64,000 nt of DNA. It comes from Aquabacterium sp. OR-4. Its GTDB lineage: Bacteria; Pseudomonadota; Gammaproteobacteria; Burkholderiales; Burkholderiaceae_C. The translations under genes were made by a program, and so were the position numbers. Below the pieces are notes generated by a model. It ran no database searches. It worked only from the letters and a program-made list of their open reading frames with translations, and was not told the DNA's origin. The stretch covers positions 1,612,001-1,676,000 of the forward strand of contig NZ_JAOCQD020000002.1 in assembly GCF_025290835.2 (NCBI RefSeq), read 5' to 3'. Below, piece by piece: positions 17,647 through 39,558 of the stretch (positions within the stretch are counted from its first letter, which is position 1; each line of letters begins with the position of its first letter).

Positions 17647-18255
17647 ATGCCCCAGCGCGCCATGCACCGCACCATCTTCACCACCCCCGGCGTCAACACC
17701 CTGCTGCGCGCCGCCTCGGTGGCCTTCTTGCGGCTCACCGGCTGGCAGATCAGCGGCAGCCTGCCGCCTGGCCAGCCCAAGTGCGTGCTGATCGCCGCGC
17801 CGCACACCAGCAACTGGGATCTGCCCTACACGCTGATGGTGGCCTTTGCGCTGCGCATCAACATCCACTGGATGGGCAAGGCGCAGATCTTTCGCTGGCC
17901 CTTCGGCGGGCTGATGCGCTGGCTGGGCGGCATTGCGGTTGACCGTGGCCAGGCCAACAACCTGGTGGCCGCCTCGGCCCAGGCGCTGCGCGAGGCCGAT
18001 GGCGCGGTGGCCCTGGTGGTGCCGCCCGAAGGCACGCGCAGCAAGACGCGGCACTGGAAGACCGGCTTCTACTGGATCGCCCATGGCGCCGGCGTGCCCA
18101 TCGTGATGGCCTACATGGACTACCCGCGCAAGCTCAGCGGCCTGGGCCCGGTGCTGCAACCTTCAGGCGACATCGAGGCCGACATGGTGACGGTGAAGGC
18201 CTACTACGCGCAGTTCAAGGGCAAGAACTGGCAGCAGTTCGACTCTGGCTCTTGA
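17647..18255 (+). CDS. Lysophospholipid acyltransferase family protein (PlsC-like)
   Basis: The 202-residue protein has acyltransferase motif I in the variant form HTSNWD (53-58) and motif III PEGTRS (127-132), the signatures of 1-acyl-glycerol-3-phosphate and related acyltransferases. A hydrophobic stretch precedes motif I. Members with HTSNWD are found widely in beta- and gammaproteobacteria and transfer acyl chains to glycerolipids or other acceptors; the acceptor here is unknown. ATG codons at 17647 and 17662 are both possible starts. The gene is convergent with uvrA, and a structured repeat fills the gap. Confidence 0.82.
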   Translation: MPQRAMHRTIFTTPGVNTLLRAASVAFLRLTGWQISGSLPPGQPKCVLIAAPHTSNWDLPYTLMVAFALRINIHWMGKAQIFRWPFGGLMRWLGGIAVDRGQANNLVAASAQALREADGAVALVVPPEGTRSKTRHWKTGFYWIAHGAGVPIVMAYMDYPRKLSGLGPVLQPSGDIEADMVTVKAYYAQFKGKNWQQFDSGS

Positions 18256-18295
18256 CTTGTTTATGGCTTGCCACGGCCTGCGGGTGATGGCATGC

Positions 18296-18413
18296 CACCG
18301 CGCCTCGGGACGAGGACGGTGGGTGGCCGGCCGGCGTAGGTAAAAGGAGGAGGGCCGAAGGCCCGGGGGACACGAAGCCGGCCGGTCACCCGCCGGCCTT
18401 GGCCATGCGCCAA
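18296..18413 (+). repeat. Structured dispersed element, copy 1
   Basis: On this strand an 18-bp stem (18318-18335 with 18377-18394, including two G-U pairs) encloses the unpaired segment GTAGGTAAAAGGAGGAG, a hairpin GGGCC-GAA-GGCCC (18352-18364) and the segment GGGGGACACGAA. A small hairpin CTCG-GGA-CGAG (18304-18314) precedes it. A second copy on the opposite strand at 31461-31585 keeps the unpaired segments but has different, still fully complementary stems. It lies between the ends of the acyltransferase gene and uvrA. Confidence 0.75.
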
Positions 18414-18432
18414 AGCAGGCAAGCAAAACGCG

Positions 18433-21400
18433 TCAAGAAGCCACCCGCGCCAACACCGGCGCCAAAGCCACCCCCGTGTGCGTGCCACGCGCCACCAGCA
18501 GCTCCGGCGGACCCGCGGCCACCACCGTGCCCCCTGCGGTGCCGCCTTCGGGCCCCATGTCGATGACCCAATCGGCCTCGGCAATCACGTCGAGGTCGTG
18601 CTCGATCACCACCACGCTGTGGCCACCGGCCACCAGGCGATGCAGTACGCGGATCAGGCGTTCCACATCGGCCATGTGCAGGCCCACGGTGGGTTCGTCC
18701 AGCACGTACAGCGTGTGCGGCGGCTTCTGGCCACGCCGGGTCACATCGTCACGCACCTTGGACAGCTCGGTCACCAGCTTGATGCGCTGGGCCTCGCCAC
18801 CGCTCAGCGTGGGGCTGGGCTGGCCCAGCGTCAGGTAGCCCAGGCCCACGTCCTGCAGCAGCTGCAGCGGATGGGCGATGCTGGGCATGCTGGCGAAAAA
18901 CTCCACCGCCTCGTCCACGCTCATCTGCAGCACATCGCCGATGCTCTTGCCGCGCCAGCTCACGGCCAGCGTCTCGGGGGCAAAGCGCTGGCCGTGGCAC
19001 TGGTCGCAGGGCACCTTCACATCGGGCAGAAAACTCATCTCGATGGTGCGCATGCCCTGGCCCTCGCAGCCCGGGCAGCGGCCGTCGCCGGTGTTGAAGC
19101 TGAAGCGGCTGGCCGCATAGCCGCGGGCCTTGGATTCCAGCGTCTCGGCAAACAGCTTGCGGATCGCGTCCCAGAAACCGATGTAGGTGGCCGGGCAGCT
19201 GCGCGGTGTCTTGCCGATCGGCGTCTGGTCGACCTCGAGCACCCGGTCGATCAGGTCGAAGCCGGCCAGCCCGGTGCAGCCCGTCCAGCCGCCGGCCGGC
19301 AACTCGCCGGCGGCCAGCGCATCGCGGCCGGCCTTGCTGACCTTCATGGCCACGGCGGCCTGCACATTGGCCAGCAGCACGTCGCGCGCCAGCGTGCTCT
19401 TGCCCGAGCCGCTGACGCCGGTCACGGCCACCAGGCGCTGCAGCGGCACCTCGATGTCGACCTGCTGCAGGTTGTGCAGGTGCGCGCCGCGCAGCTGCAT
19501 CTGGAAGGTGGCGCGGTTCACCACACGCCGGGCCTGCAGCGGATGGATCAGCGGCCGCGCCAGGAAGCGCCCGGTGAGTGACTCGGCCACCGCGGCCAGA
19601 TCGGCCGCGCTGCCCTGGGCGATCAGCCGGCCGCCGCGCTTGCCGGCGCCGGGGCCGATGTCGATGATGTGGTCGGCGCGGCGGATGGTGTCTTCGTCGT
19701 GCTCCACCACCACCAGGGTGTTGCCCTGCTCGCTGAGCCGGCCCAGCGCCTTCAGCAGCACGCCGTTGTCGCGCGGGTGCAGGCCGTTGGTGGGCTCGTC
19801 GAGCACGTAGCACACGCCCTGCAGATTGCTGCCCAGCTGCGCGGCCAGGCGGATGCGCTGTGCCTCGCCGCCGCTCAGCGTGGGCGCCGCGCGGTCCAGC
19901 GTCAGGTAGCCCAGGCCCACTTCCTCGAGAAACTGCAGGCGGTTGCGGATCTCGGTGACCACGTCGCGGGCGATGGCCGCATCGCGGCCTTCCAGCGCCA
20001 GCGCTTGCACCCACTGCCGCGCCTGGCCCACCGACCATTGCGCCACCGTGGTGATGGCCTGGCCGTCAAAGCCGATGGCGCGCGCGGTGGGGTTCAGGCG
20101 CGTGCCCTGGCAATCGGGGCAGGGCTCGCCCGACAGGCCTTCCACCTCGGCCTCCTCGGACGGAAAGCTCTGCTCGCGGCCCTTGTCGCTGTCGTCGCGC
20201 ACGCTGTCATCGAGCGCCTTGCGCTGCTCGCGTGTCAGCGTCAGCCCGGTGCCCACGCAGCTGGTGCACCAGCCGTGCTTGCTGTTGTAGCTGAACATGC
20301 GCGGGTCCAGCTCGGGGTAGCTGGTGCCGCATTGCGGGCAGGCGCGCTTGGTGGAAAACACCTTCAGCGTGCCGATGCCCAGCGTGGGCGTGCCGGCCTC
20401 CATCGCGGCCGACAGGCCATCCAGCGGGCTGAGCAGGTGCAGCACGCCCTTGCCATGGTCCAGCGCCTTGGCCAGGGCCTCGCGCAGCGCGGCCTCGTCG
20501 GCCACGTTGACCACGAAGTCGGCCACCGGCAGCTCGAGCGTGTGCTCTTTGAAGCGGTCGAGCCGCGGCCACGGATCGGTCTTGATGAACTCGCCGTCCA
20601 CGCGCAGATGGCTGTGGCCGCGGGCCTTGGCCCACTTGGCCAGGTCGGTGTAGACACCCTTGCGGTTGACCACCAGCGGCGCCAGCAGGCCCACGTGCTG
20701 GCCGCGGTAATCGCGCAAGATCTGCGCGGCGATGCTCTCCACGCTTTGCGGCCGCACCTCGGCGCCATCGTGCACGCAGCGCTGGATGCCCAGCTTCACC
20801 CACAGCAGGCGCAGAAAGTGCCACACCTCGGTGGTGGTGGCCACCGTGCTCTTGCGCCCGCCACGGCTCAAGCGCTGCTCGATGGCCACCGTGGGCGGAA
20901 TGCCGTACACCGCGTCCACCTCGGGCCGGCCGGCCGGCTGCACGATGCTGCGCGCATAGGCGTTGAGGCTTTCGAGGTAGCGGCGCTGGCCCTCGTTGAA
21001 CAGGATGTCGAAGGCCAGCGTGCTCTTGCCCGAGCCCGACACCCCGGTGATGACGCTGAACTTGCCGTGCGGGATGTCGACGTTGAGGCTCTTGAGGTTG
21101 TGCTCCTTGGCATTGACGATGCGGATGTTGTCGCCACCCTGGGCTGCGCGCAGCGCACGCGCCGCATCACGCCGGGCCTTGGCCACCAGCTGCAGCGGCC
21201 GGCCCTCCTCGGCCTGCAGCGGGCCCTGGCCGATGGCCTGCTCGTAGTCGCGCAGCGCCGCGCCGGTGTGCGAGCTGGCATGCGCCTTCAGGTCTTCGGG
21301 CGTGCCCTGGGCCACCAGCGCGCCACCGCCCTCGCCGCCCTCGGGGCCGAGGTCGATCAGCCAGTCGGCGCTGCGGATGACATCGAGGTTGTGCTCGATG

Positions 21401-27895: not shown

Positions 27896-28801
27896 ATGAC
27901 AGCCGCCGTCCGAACCCTGCCCGAGCCTGCCCCGCCGCCCCTGCCGGCGCGCGTGCTGGTGGTCGACCCCGATGCCCAGGTGCAGCAATGGCTGGCCCAG
28001 TGCCTGCGGCCGCATGGCCACCGCGTGCATGCCGCGCGGCACGCCGAAGCGATTGCCCAGGCGCCGGCGCGTGGCTTCGAGCTGGTGATGATGAGCCCGC
28101 GCGCGCCCTCGGCCCAGCCCGACTGGCCGCGTGCGGCCGGCAGCGCGGGCGATGCCTGGCAGCGGCTGCGCGGCCTGCGCGACGCCGCGCCGCGGTTGCC
28201 GGTGATCGTGCTGCAGCCGCATGCCGACGCCACCGACCGCGCCGTGGCGCTGGAGCTGGGCGCCGACGCGGTGGTGGACGACGACTGCGGCCCGCGCGAA
28301 CTGCGCGCCCGCGTGGCCGCGCTGCTGCGCCGCCACCGCGACGATCGGCGCGGCCTGCCCGCCGAAGGCCCGGCCGCCGCCGGCGGCTGGCGCCTGGATG
28401 CCGCGCGCCGCGGCGTGCACGCCCCGGACGGCACCGATGGCGACGCGGCCGGCGAGCTGTTCATCGCGCTGTCGGCCAGCGAGTTCAGGCTGCTGCGGGC
28501 GCTGATGCAGCAGCCCGGGCGGCCGCTGCAGCGCGCCGATCTGCTGAGCCTGGCGCTCGGCGCCGCCGAGGCGCAGCGCGAGCGCAGCATCGACCTGCTG
28601 GTCTCGCGCCTGCGCCGCACGCTGGGCGACGACCCGCAGATGCCGCGCCTGATCCGCACCGTGCGTGGCGCCGGCTACTGCTTCGAGCCGCTCATCCGGC
28701 GTGCTGGGTCGCTGCGCGCGCCGATGGTGTCAAACGCCTCACACCAAGGCGACACCGGATTGACAGACGGCGCCGACGATCACATCACCGGCATTCCGTG
28801 A
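27896..28801 (+). CDS. OmpR-type response regulator with degenerate receiver
   Basis: The 301-residue protein has a receiver fold (18-140) and a winged-helix DNA-binding domain (about 190-265, ending RTVRGAGYCFEPL as in OmpR/PhoB). The acidic pair (Asp24, Asp26) is kept, but the phosphoacceptor position is Ser67 (ELVMMSPRAP), the conserved Thr/Ser is Gln107 and the conserved Lys is lost (VVDDDCG). Classical phosphorylation is therefore unlikely, and it should act as an atypical, constitutive or ligand-controlled regulator. A Pro-rich N-terminal tail of 17 residues is unusual. It follows the hybrid kinase on the same strand after 150 bp. Confidence 0.85.
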   Translation: MTAAVRTLPEPAPPPLPARVLVVDPDAQVQQWLAQCLRPHGHRVHAARHAEAIAQAPARGFELVMMSPRAPSAQPDWPRAAGSAGDAWQRLRGLRDAAPRLPVIVLQPHADATDRAVALELGADAVVDDDCGPRELRARVAALLRRHRDDRRGLPAEGPAAAGGWRLDAARRGVHAPDGTDGDAAGELFIALSASEFRLLRALMQQPGRPLQRADLLSLALGAAEAQRERSIDLLVSRLRRTLGDDPQMPRLIRTVRGAGYCFEPLIRRAGSLRAPMVSNASHQGDTGLTDGADDHITGIP

Positions 28802-30927: not shown

Positions 30928-31416
30928 ATGACGTCACACCCCACCACGCCACCCGCAGCAGCCTCGCCCTCGGCCCCGGACGAGGCCTCGCCACCCGAGC
31001 CTGCACTGCACGGGCGCGAGCGCCATGTGCCCTTCATTGCGCACCTGGGCATCCACCGCGTGCGGGCCGACCATGGCGAGGCGCTGATCGAGCTCACGCT
31101 GCGGCCCGAGCTGTGCAACAACCATGGCGGCGGCCATGGCGGTGTGATGATGACCCTGCTCGACTGCGCCATGGCCCATGCGGCGCTGAGCCGCATCGAC
31201 TACAGCCGCGAGGTGGTGACGGTGGACATGCACATCGCCTTCATGCACCCCGCCAGCGGCCGGCTGCAGGCCACCGGCCGCGCCACCGGCGGTGGCCGCT
31301 CGGTGTGCTTTTGCGAGGCCGAGATCCGCGACGACCACGGCCATGTCATCGCCAAGAGCATGGGCACGTTCCGCTACCGGGCGCCGGCCACGGGGGATGG
31401 GCCGGGGCGGGTTTGA
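30928..31416 (+). CDS. PaaI-family hotdog thioesterase
   Basis: The 162-residue protein is a hotdog-fold acyl-CoA thioesterase: the motif HGGGHGGVMMTLLDCAMAHA (His70, Gly71, Gly72, Asp79) matches the PaaI/4HBT signature with the catalytic acid on the long helix, and the end of the fold (MGTFRYR) is conserved. The first 35 residues are a Pro/Ala-rich tail unlikely to be folded. It would release free CoA and acid from acyl- or aroyl-CoA. It lies 630 bp upstream of the catabolic island on the same strand but separated by repeats, so it may or may not belong to it. Confidence 0.85.
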   Translation: MTSHPTTPPAAASPSAPDEASPPEPALHGRERHVPFIAHLGIHRVRADHGEALIELTLRPELCNNHGGGHGGVMMTLLDCAMAHAALSRIDYSREVVTVDMHIAFMHPASGRLQATGRATGGGRSVCFCEAEIRDDHGHVIAKSMGTFRYRAPATGDGPGRV

Positions 31417-31460
31417 TTCTGTTGTCGCCTGCCCAGCCTGTTTGGCTTGCCCAGGCCGGT

Positions 31461-31585
31461 GCACGGCCAAGGCCGCCGGGTACCGGGCTGACTCCGTGTC
31501 CCCCGCCAGGCCGCTCCCGCGACCCGGCTCCTCCTTTACCTGCGTCAGCCCGATACCCGACGTCCTCGTCCCGAGACACTGTGGC
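31461..31585 (-). repeat. Structured dispersed element, copy 2
   Basis: Read on the minus strand, the 18-bp outer stem (31544-31561 with 31475-31492, two G-U pairs) encloses GCAGGTAAAGGAGGAG, a 9-bp hairpin with a GGGA loop (CCGGGTCGC and GCGGCCTGG), and GGGGGACACGGA. The CTCG-GGA-CGAG mini-hairpin is kept at 31565-31575. Compared with copy 1 the stems differ at seven positions and all remain paired. Confidence 0.75.
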
Positions 31586-31615
31586 ACGCGACGATCCGCA
31601 TGTCGCGGTGGTGCC

Positions 31616-31856
31616 GCCAAGCCGTGGCCGGGTGCCCGGCGGCGTGAATCTGCGCCGGTGAGGCGCGCAGGGCGCGTGGCCGCGCGCGCAGCGCGCATCG
31701 TCCCTCTGACTCGCATCGCCTGTTCGAGCACAGTGAGCGACAGCGAACGGCGCGAGTTGCGATGCGCGGCCACGGGCCCGAGCACCGCAACGAAGTCCGC
31801 CGCTTGCGGCGGACCGGCGCAGTTGAGCGCCGCCGGGCACCCGGCCACGGCTTGGC
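31616..31856. repeat. Long-arm palindromic dispersed repeat, degenerate copy
   Basis: The outer 29 bp of the arms, beginning GCCAAGCCGTGGCCGGGTGC, are perfect inverted complements; the inner parts have diverged and the right arm is about 20 bp longer. The centre (CTCTGACTCGCATCGCCTGTT) is shared with the copy at 39340-39558. It contains no gene. Confidence 0.85.
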
Positions 31857-32046
31857 CCGCGCCCACCCCAGCAAGCTCAACCGCAACAGCAGCAAGCGCC
31901 CGCCACCACAAATCCTGAACCCCTCGTAAACCCAGGCCGAAGCCTGAGCGTTTCAGCCAATCGCCAGCCACCATCCCTGCCATTGCCCCATCCGGCAGCC
32001 GGCGCGCACACTCGAAGCACAACGCAGGCCGAGCAGGAGACAAGGC

Positions 32047-39339: not shown

Positions 39340-39558
39340 GCCAAGCCGTGCCCGGGTGTCCGGCACAGCGAATCTGCGCTGGCGAGGAGCGCAGCAGGCG
39401 TGGCCGCGCGCGTGAGCGCGCATCGACCCTCTGACTCGCATCGCCTGTTCGAGCGCAGTGAGCGTCAGCGAACGCAGCGAGTTGCGATGCGCGGCCACGC
39501 CTGCTGCGCTCCTCGCCAGCGCAGATTCGCTGTGCCGGACACCCGGGCACGGCTTGGC
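39340..39558. repeat. Long-arm palindromic dispersed repeat, perfect copy
   Basis: The 70-bp left arm (39340-39409, starting GCCAAGCCGTGCCCGGGTGT) is the exact reverse complement of the right arm (39489-39558), separated by a 79-bp centre. The centre shares CTCTGACTCGCATCGCCTGTT with the copy at 31616-31856. It lies between converging genes and could form a cruciform or a bidirectional terminator. Confidence 0.93.

Follow-up and report, generated by a model that had tools for sequence, protein, structure and literature searches.

A dispersed repeat with a strand-specific hairpin fold in Aquabacterium sp. OR-4 and other betaproteobacteria

Introduction

A hairpin-forming sequence lies downstream of an acyltransferase gene (PF01553) in Aquabacterium sp. 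OR-4, and a second, differing copy lies on the opposite strand of the same window, by which we mean the whole 64,000-nt stretch of the genome that was analysed. The first-pass annotation read the two copies as a conserved RNA fold whose arms stay paired while their sequence changes. This raises the question of what such a fold is for: whether it serves the neighboring gene, acts as an RNA in its own right, or belongs to something that moves. Our findings place the element in a dispersed mobile repeat family present in many betaproteobacteria.

Results

Geometry and stability of the window copies

Direct reading confirmed the originally described geometry in each detail compared. In copy 1, all 18 positions of the 18-nt arms are paired, two of them as G-U, and those of copy 2 are also fully paired (18 of 18). 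The two sets of arms differ at seven positions (2, 3, 8, 9, 11, 15 and 17) with pairing kept at each; positions 8, 11, 15 and 17 are Watson-Crick exchanges, and the other three differences involve G-U. The inner hairpins likewise agree with the description, having 5 bp and a GAA loop in copy 1 and 9 bp and a GGGA loop in copy 2. Two points needed revision. The 18-nt arms stand, but the stem is longer than stated, with 24 positions including one mismatch; and the segments between the arms, which had been called unpaired, are not free loops, as covariation was found there as well.

Folded as RNA, copies 1 and 2 gave z = -3.98 and -3.86, with 0 of 200 shuffles equally stable in each case. Copy 1 also folds well as single-stranded DNA (z -3.37, 0 of 200 shuffles equal), so folding energy does not discriminate between RNA and DNA. 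On the minus strand, P2 at 18352-18364 together with the pyrimidine-rich core (TCCTCCTTTT) resembles a weak terminator (1 found, 0.6 expected).

Table 1. Features of the repeat in the window; the covariance-model E-values of copies 1 and 2 are partly by construction, as both are among the 34 sequences of the model.
Feature	Position	Strand	Evidence
Copy 1 hairpin (P1, core, P2)	18312..18400	+	Covariance model match, E 2.7e-14 (model member); fold
Copy 1 P1, 5' arm	18312..18335	+	Arm pairing, fold, covariance model match
Copy 1 core, 5' strand GTAGGTAAAAGGAGGA	18336..18351	+	Conserved across the family
Copy 1 inner hairpin P2 (5 bp, GAA loop)	18352..18364	+	Reading, fold
Copy 1 core, 3' strand GGGGGACACGAA	18365..18376	+	Conserved across the family
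Copy 1 P1, 3' arm	18377..18400	+	Arm pairing, fold, covariance model match
Copy 2 hairpin	31469..31567	-	Covariance model match, E 2.1e-16 (model member); fold
Composite repeat: copy 2 hairpin, linker, palindromic module B	31440..31880	-	blastn
Module B (51-nt arms, 86% complementary, 139 nt apart)	31616..31856		Repeat comparison

Stem covariation and its strand

In A3, a MAFFT alignment of 34 sequences that was not fitted to the structure, although the structure was derived from these same sequences, standard pairs occupied 95.3% of the pair cells; shuffling lowered this to a mean of 68.3%, and slid partners gave 32.6-46.0%. Double changes were found at 23 of 28 pairs, against a shuffled mean of 18.2. 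A cleaner test is provided by hairpins chosen by the core pattern alone, with the arms ignored: 127 pattern hits at 121 loci, from which 5 were dropped (no R motif) and 3 more (short arms), gave 118 distinct hairpins and, at <80% arm identity, 74 non-redundant ones. Arm cells of these 74 were paired in 94.8% of cases, comprising 1478 Watson-Crick and 135 G-U cells beside 14 A-C and 75 other cells, although copies within one genome are not independent. When arms were swapped, Watson-Crick pairs fell to 46.9%, with fractions of 0.132 for G-U and 0.082 for A-C (a ratio of about 1.6).

Because G-U exceeds A-C by 135 to 14, the GGAGGAG strand is the folded one, and the earlier argument that the G-U pairs fix the strand is borne out; together with the pairing on A3, this upholds a conserved, strand-specific fold. 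These counts point to selection on the fold, acting on a single strand. The G-U bias fits folded RNA and folded single-stranded DNA alike and cannot tell them apart.

Matched arms could also arise with no folding selection, if palindrome copies had their arms matched by template-switch correction and their loops were alike by recent descent. Such correction yields double changes that preserve pairing in the absence of selection. Under it, however, G-T should not greatly outnumber A-C, nor should it under selection of double-stranded DNA, and this is at odds with 135:14 against about 1.6 for swapped arms. The account also leaves unexplained both the covariation within the core and the sharing of that core by different arms across genera. 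We consider this account very improbable.

A paired, co-varying core

Core counts refer to the 217 hairpins parsed out of 239 distinct ones (22 unparsed, including antisense or cut-off rows; one genomic place, L059 = L180, is counted twice), and here too hairpins from one genome are not independent. Inward from P1, the order is C-G, then G.A, N-G and A.G. In a sub-family of 26 rows (L173 of the own genome, G003, G015 and others) that reads 5' GCGA / 3' GAGC, N and its partner G are both absent, which would look like a lost base pair. The R-Y position is GC in 142 hairpins, AT in 68, GT in 6 and AC in 1. It is followed inward by G-C, U-A, one bulged A and 2-5 variable nucleotides, and then by the purine strands, which read GGAGG/GGGGG in 178 hairpins and, swapped, GGGGG/GGAGG in 9 (carried by G020, G005, the own genome, L243 and L286). 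Rarer pairings are GAAGGG/GGAATG (10), GGCGG/GGGGG (8, every one in G008), GGAAGG/GGGGGG (6), GAAGG/GGGTG (2) and GGAGG/GGGCG (1), and the cells against the pairing rules are GGAGG/GGTGG, GGGGG/GGGGG and GGAGG/GGAGG, one each. The core is paired too, and it co-varies. Since this core is kept while the stems change in matched pairs, a cell factor probably recognizes the fold rather than the sequence.

Two known architectures were rejected for the core. A G-quadruplex of the GGNGG/GGNGG kind is contradicted by GAAGGG/GGAATG and GAAGG/GGGTG, which break the tracts and keep the pairing register, and the resemblance to a kink-turn is limited to the tandem G.A, with no adjacent three-base bulge seen by reading.

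The core also contains AAAGGAGG, which we take to be a match to the usual 16S anti-Shine-Dalgarno sequence, and it might therefore act on ribosomes as a decoy Shine-Dalgarno, in the manner of a toxic small RNA. Toxic small RNAs (RF02278) are described from Burkholderia in the excerpt of PMC4603805. Yet the variants GAAGGG, GGCGG and GGGGG lose the full match, the GAAGGG and GGGGG variants accompany changes on the opposite strand, and RF02278 was not among the relaxed Rfam matches, whose release may not include it. Of the explanations weighed, this is the one to which we give least credence.

Separate copies at L007, L041, L091 and L242 carry an inserted REP-like palindrome of another kind, at one shared point of the core directly after GGGGGA. 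It is of the CCCGGAC..CAAAC...GTTTG..CCTGG type (L242 carries another one), and the core loop looks like a preferred target for REP-like palindromes.

Twin units, outer ends and composite copies

Among sense-parsed hairpins lying less than 260 nt apart, 65 of 66 adjacent pairs are head to head (-+). The usual unit holds two hairpins of about 85-130 nt around a linker. The head-to-head gap is 45-104 nt, with a median of 53 (the place L059 = L180 being counted twice), and further pairs from the order and phylum samples have gaps of up to about 160 nt. Exceptions are L304, which is tail to tail, and G414, with two minus hairpins followed by one plus; several copies are singletons. When each member of a head-to-head pair is read in its own sense, G-U:A-C is 36:5 on the left and 42:5 on the right (35 and 33 distinct parsable hairpins, respectively). 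Both members are biased toward their own sense, which places the two sense strands on opposite strands of the DNA.

Clustered boundaries of many blast matches in G008 outline a unit of about 320 bp with inverted ends (GGGCTC...GAGCCC). Reading showed inverted outer ends in copies of G008, G003 and G210, but not clearly in the window copies; they differ between genera (G210 has an ATGAAAC...GTTTCAT type) while the twin hairpins are kept. Within the own genome, blastn found the composite repeat that includes copy 2 again at L002, L032 and, more weakly (68%), L003, with module B occupying the place that the partner hairpin has in two-hairpin units. Copy 1 is a solo end, and copy 2 is an end joined to another palindromic module. 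A solo module B at 39340-39558, with 70-nt arms that are 100% complementary and 79 nt apart, forms a very long perfect inverted repeat.

As candidates for an autonomous parent element, we considered L243, L253 and L270, where divergent hairpins lie 1.7-2.3 kb apart, and rejected them: they enclose ordinary-looking coding frames, and no transposase was recognized between the hairpins when the translations were read. A fourth apparent long-spaced case, L361 (G295), turned out to be a close pair of the usual kind, with a third hairpin standing apart. The copies at L253 4998-5087 and L270 3660-3749 lie inside long open frames, which read through them in frame.

Family size and taxonomic distribution

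Further copies in the own genome were found with copy 1 as the query, and copy 2 returned an overlapping set. A covariance-model search of this and related genomes, a check proposed in the first-pass annotation, found more, using a family model built from 34 copies. At the cut-off applied to the own genome and the genus (E<=1e-4), the own genome has 16 matches, and 16 of 21 genus genomes, the own one counted, have at least one; G008, with 30, and G006, with 25, have the most. With E<=1e-6 and stricter filters, matches were found in 9 of 300 genomes of the order sample and 3 of 299 of the phylum sample, the own genome again counted and many of the genomes compared being draft MAGs. The distribution beyond the genus is patchy.

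The exact core pattern occurs in at least 120 stretches in named genomes. Among the matches listed are Rhodoferax, Curvibacter, Hydrogenophaga, Paucibacter, Roseateles, Pelomonas, Ideonella, Rubrivivax, Aquabacterium, Janthinobacterium and Rhodocyclaceae, as well as a Luteimonas MAG and a MAG named Gammaproteobacteria, both on short or draft contigs. A match was also obtained in one viral contig, and a plasmid collection and a phage collection, searched with one query each, gave none.

Comparison with Rfam, which had also been suggested, identified no family for the element at the gathering threshold. The window has 0 matches at family threshold, and 19 relative loci have two tRNAs at threshold, both in L263, and nothing else; in relaxed scans all matches were sub-threshold, and the best (E 0.0041, in L005) lies outside the hairpin. 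Judged by title, literature searches turned up no description of the repeat family, and none of the papers containing the four core strings concerned bacterial repeats. Elsewhere in the window, ARAGORN called a tRNA-Ala (ggc) at 28326-28416 on the minus strand, inside a plus-strand open frame where the Rfam scan has no tRNA, and this is probably a false call.

Insertion history and gene context

Of 11 relative loci with the acyltransferase gene, two (G007 and G013, by reading) carry it with the same convergent neighbor, which we take to resemble UvrA, and no hairpin; the remaining 9 have different neighbors. Among 11 relative loci, 8 have the thioesterase (PF03061) and thiolase (PF00108) genes side by side without the element, their aligned parts separated by about 40-210 nt; in the own genome, a stretch of about 670 nt, which houses copy 2 and module B, lies between these genes. 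These comparisons indicate that both window copies are lineage-specific insertions. A search for empty sites gave no clean junction, and no target duplication was seen on reading the repeat boundaries.

With a rough gene caller, which missed the thioesterase gene at 30928-31416, and with units within 900 nt of a locus end omitted, 33 of 106 intergenic units lie between convergent genes and 12 of 106 between divergent ones; outside these 106, 13 more units lie inside predicted frames and 4 at edges. By the same rough calls, single hairpins between co-directional genes are sense in 12 cases and antisense in 15. The preponderance of convergent over divergent placement fits avoidance of promoters. 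It would also suit a cis-acting mRNA 3' element (a terminator, stabilizer or RNase processing site) serving the genes upstream, the acyltransferase gene among them, but promoter avoidance alone would yield a 3' bias, sense and antisense placement are equal, relatives lack the element at the same gene boundaries, copy 2 is antisense between two plus-strand genes, and no U-tract was seen by reading after the sense hairpin of copy 1. We therefore regard a 3' element as improbable.

For copy 1 itself, a search of 18200-18500 for promoters of the sigma-70 type found none. Because there is no orientation preference, placement resembles promoter avoidance and no sigma-70-like site is present, a cis role for the acyltransferase gene is unlikely. 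The tie to this gene that its position had suggested is thus not sustained, given the element-free boundary in G007 and G013 and the antisense copy 2.

Could the hairpins instead be transcribed outward and act as RNA? A new structured-RNA class on a mobile repeat, with a protein ligand or possibly catalytic, would account for the sense-strand G-U bias, the co-varying non-canonical core and RNA fold z-scores of about -4. Set against it are the indifferent orientation to flanking genes (12 sense, 15 antisense), the lack of a sigma-70-like promoter in the region searched at copy 1, the ability of the copy 1 stretch to fold as DNA (z -3.37) and the lack of an Rfam match at threshold. It is a tentative alternative, which we think somewhat unlikely.

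Search for a mobilizing enzyme

No mobilizing enzyme was found for the repeat. Of the 21 genus genomes, 9 have Y1 transposase genes, whose occurrence does not match the copy number of the repeat: the copy-richest genomes, G008 (30 matches) and G006 (25), have none, and 0 of 11 Y1 loci have hairpins in the flanking sequence examined. A link to RAYT (REP-associated Y1 transposase) was rejected on these grounds.

Discussion

Comparison with known repeats

CGTC-tagged REPs, as presented in the excerpt of PMC3733652, resemble our repeat in being mostly head-to-head dimers with no known dedicated transposase; they differ in being small palindromes with a CGTC tag, and that excerpt describes no internal purine core. 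REPs are given as 20-50 nt palindromes with a conserved GTAG in front (PMC8266576, in excerpt). There is also a close likeness to REPINs, or REP doublets (BIMEs), which the excerpted account in PMC3116915 portrays as short non-autonomous intergenic repeats whose two inverted hairpin-forming units replicate together, with singlets seen as remnants and compensatory changes in the hairpin spacer. Here too the repeated entity consists of two inverted units (65 of 66 adjacent pairs are -+), and single hairpins exist. Unlike REPINs, our hairpins measure about 85-130 nt, their stems vary freely, and an internal core is conserved. By reading, no common flanking tag (GTAG or CGTC) accompanies them, and no RAYT gene was found near the repeats, with Y1 in 9 of 21 genomes and 0 hairpins at 11 Y1 loci. 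We do not file the repeat as a REPIN because two defining features fail, though the element would work alike.

Prokaryotic MITEs, and mosaic elements such as RIME, share with the repeat a length of a few hundred bp, composite copies and, apparently, inverted outer ends. MITE ends are conserved as sequence, whereas the two ends of our repeat share fold and core and differ in stem sequence. Terminal inverted repeats appear by reading in the G008, G003 and G210 copies, differing between genera, and no parent insertion sequence was recognized between long-spaced divergent hairpins. In integron attC sites, the fold rather than the stem sequence is conserved and one strand is recognized. Our ends are similar in the first respect and would be in the second, but attC sites belong to a cassette array and the repeat has two inverted ends.

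A proposed mechanism

The many copies, the patchy distribution, the gene boundaries without the element in relatives and the clustered ends in G008 all suggest that the element moves. Our preferred reading, to which we give about an even chance, is a non-autonomous REPIN/MITE-like element whose two ends are read as folded single strands by a putative trans-acting factor. The usual unit comprises two hairpins head to head around a linker, with their senses on opposite DNA strands and each folding from its own sense strand, as RNA or single-stranded DNA. From the outside in, the predicted fold runs through a 20-24-bp stem of free sequence, C-G, G.A, an optional N-G and A.G; then R-Y, G-C and U-A with a bulged A, and 2-5 variable nucleotides; and finally a purine-purine helix (GGAGG/GGGGG), G-C and the variable hairpin P2. 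This full model draws partly on covariation and partly on inference. A protein acting in trans most likely reads the core of either end in its folded, single-stranded form and would thereby move the element. If the enzyme of a mobile element moved in trans read a folded single strand at each end, the element would be expected to look as ours does, with inverted ends that are conserved as folds, lie on opposite strands and enclose no recognized gene. A related proposal, which we hold to be a little less probable than the structured-RNA alternative above, is a new class of protein-binding or catalytic structured RNA with a G.A and purine-purine core, spread as divergent twin ends of a mobile element, the fold being the end-recognition signal. 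The carriers of such a class would be Betaproteobacteria and, perhaps, a few Gammaproteobacteria.

We know of few bacterial mobile repeats that combine fold-conserved ends, compensatory stem changes, strand-specific wobbles and co-varying non-canonical pairs. If the fold is indeed the recognition signal, the family would offer a route to a transposase or RNA-binding protein of a new, structure-reading kind, with the core serving as a natural set of variants on which to test G.A and purine-purine architecture.
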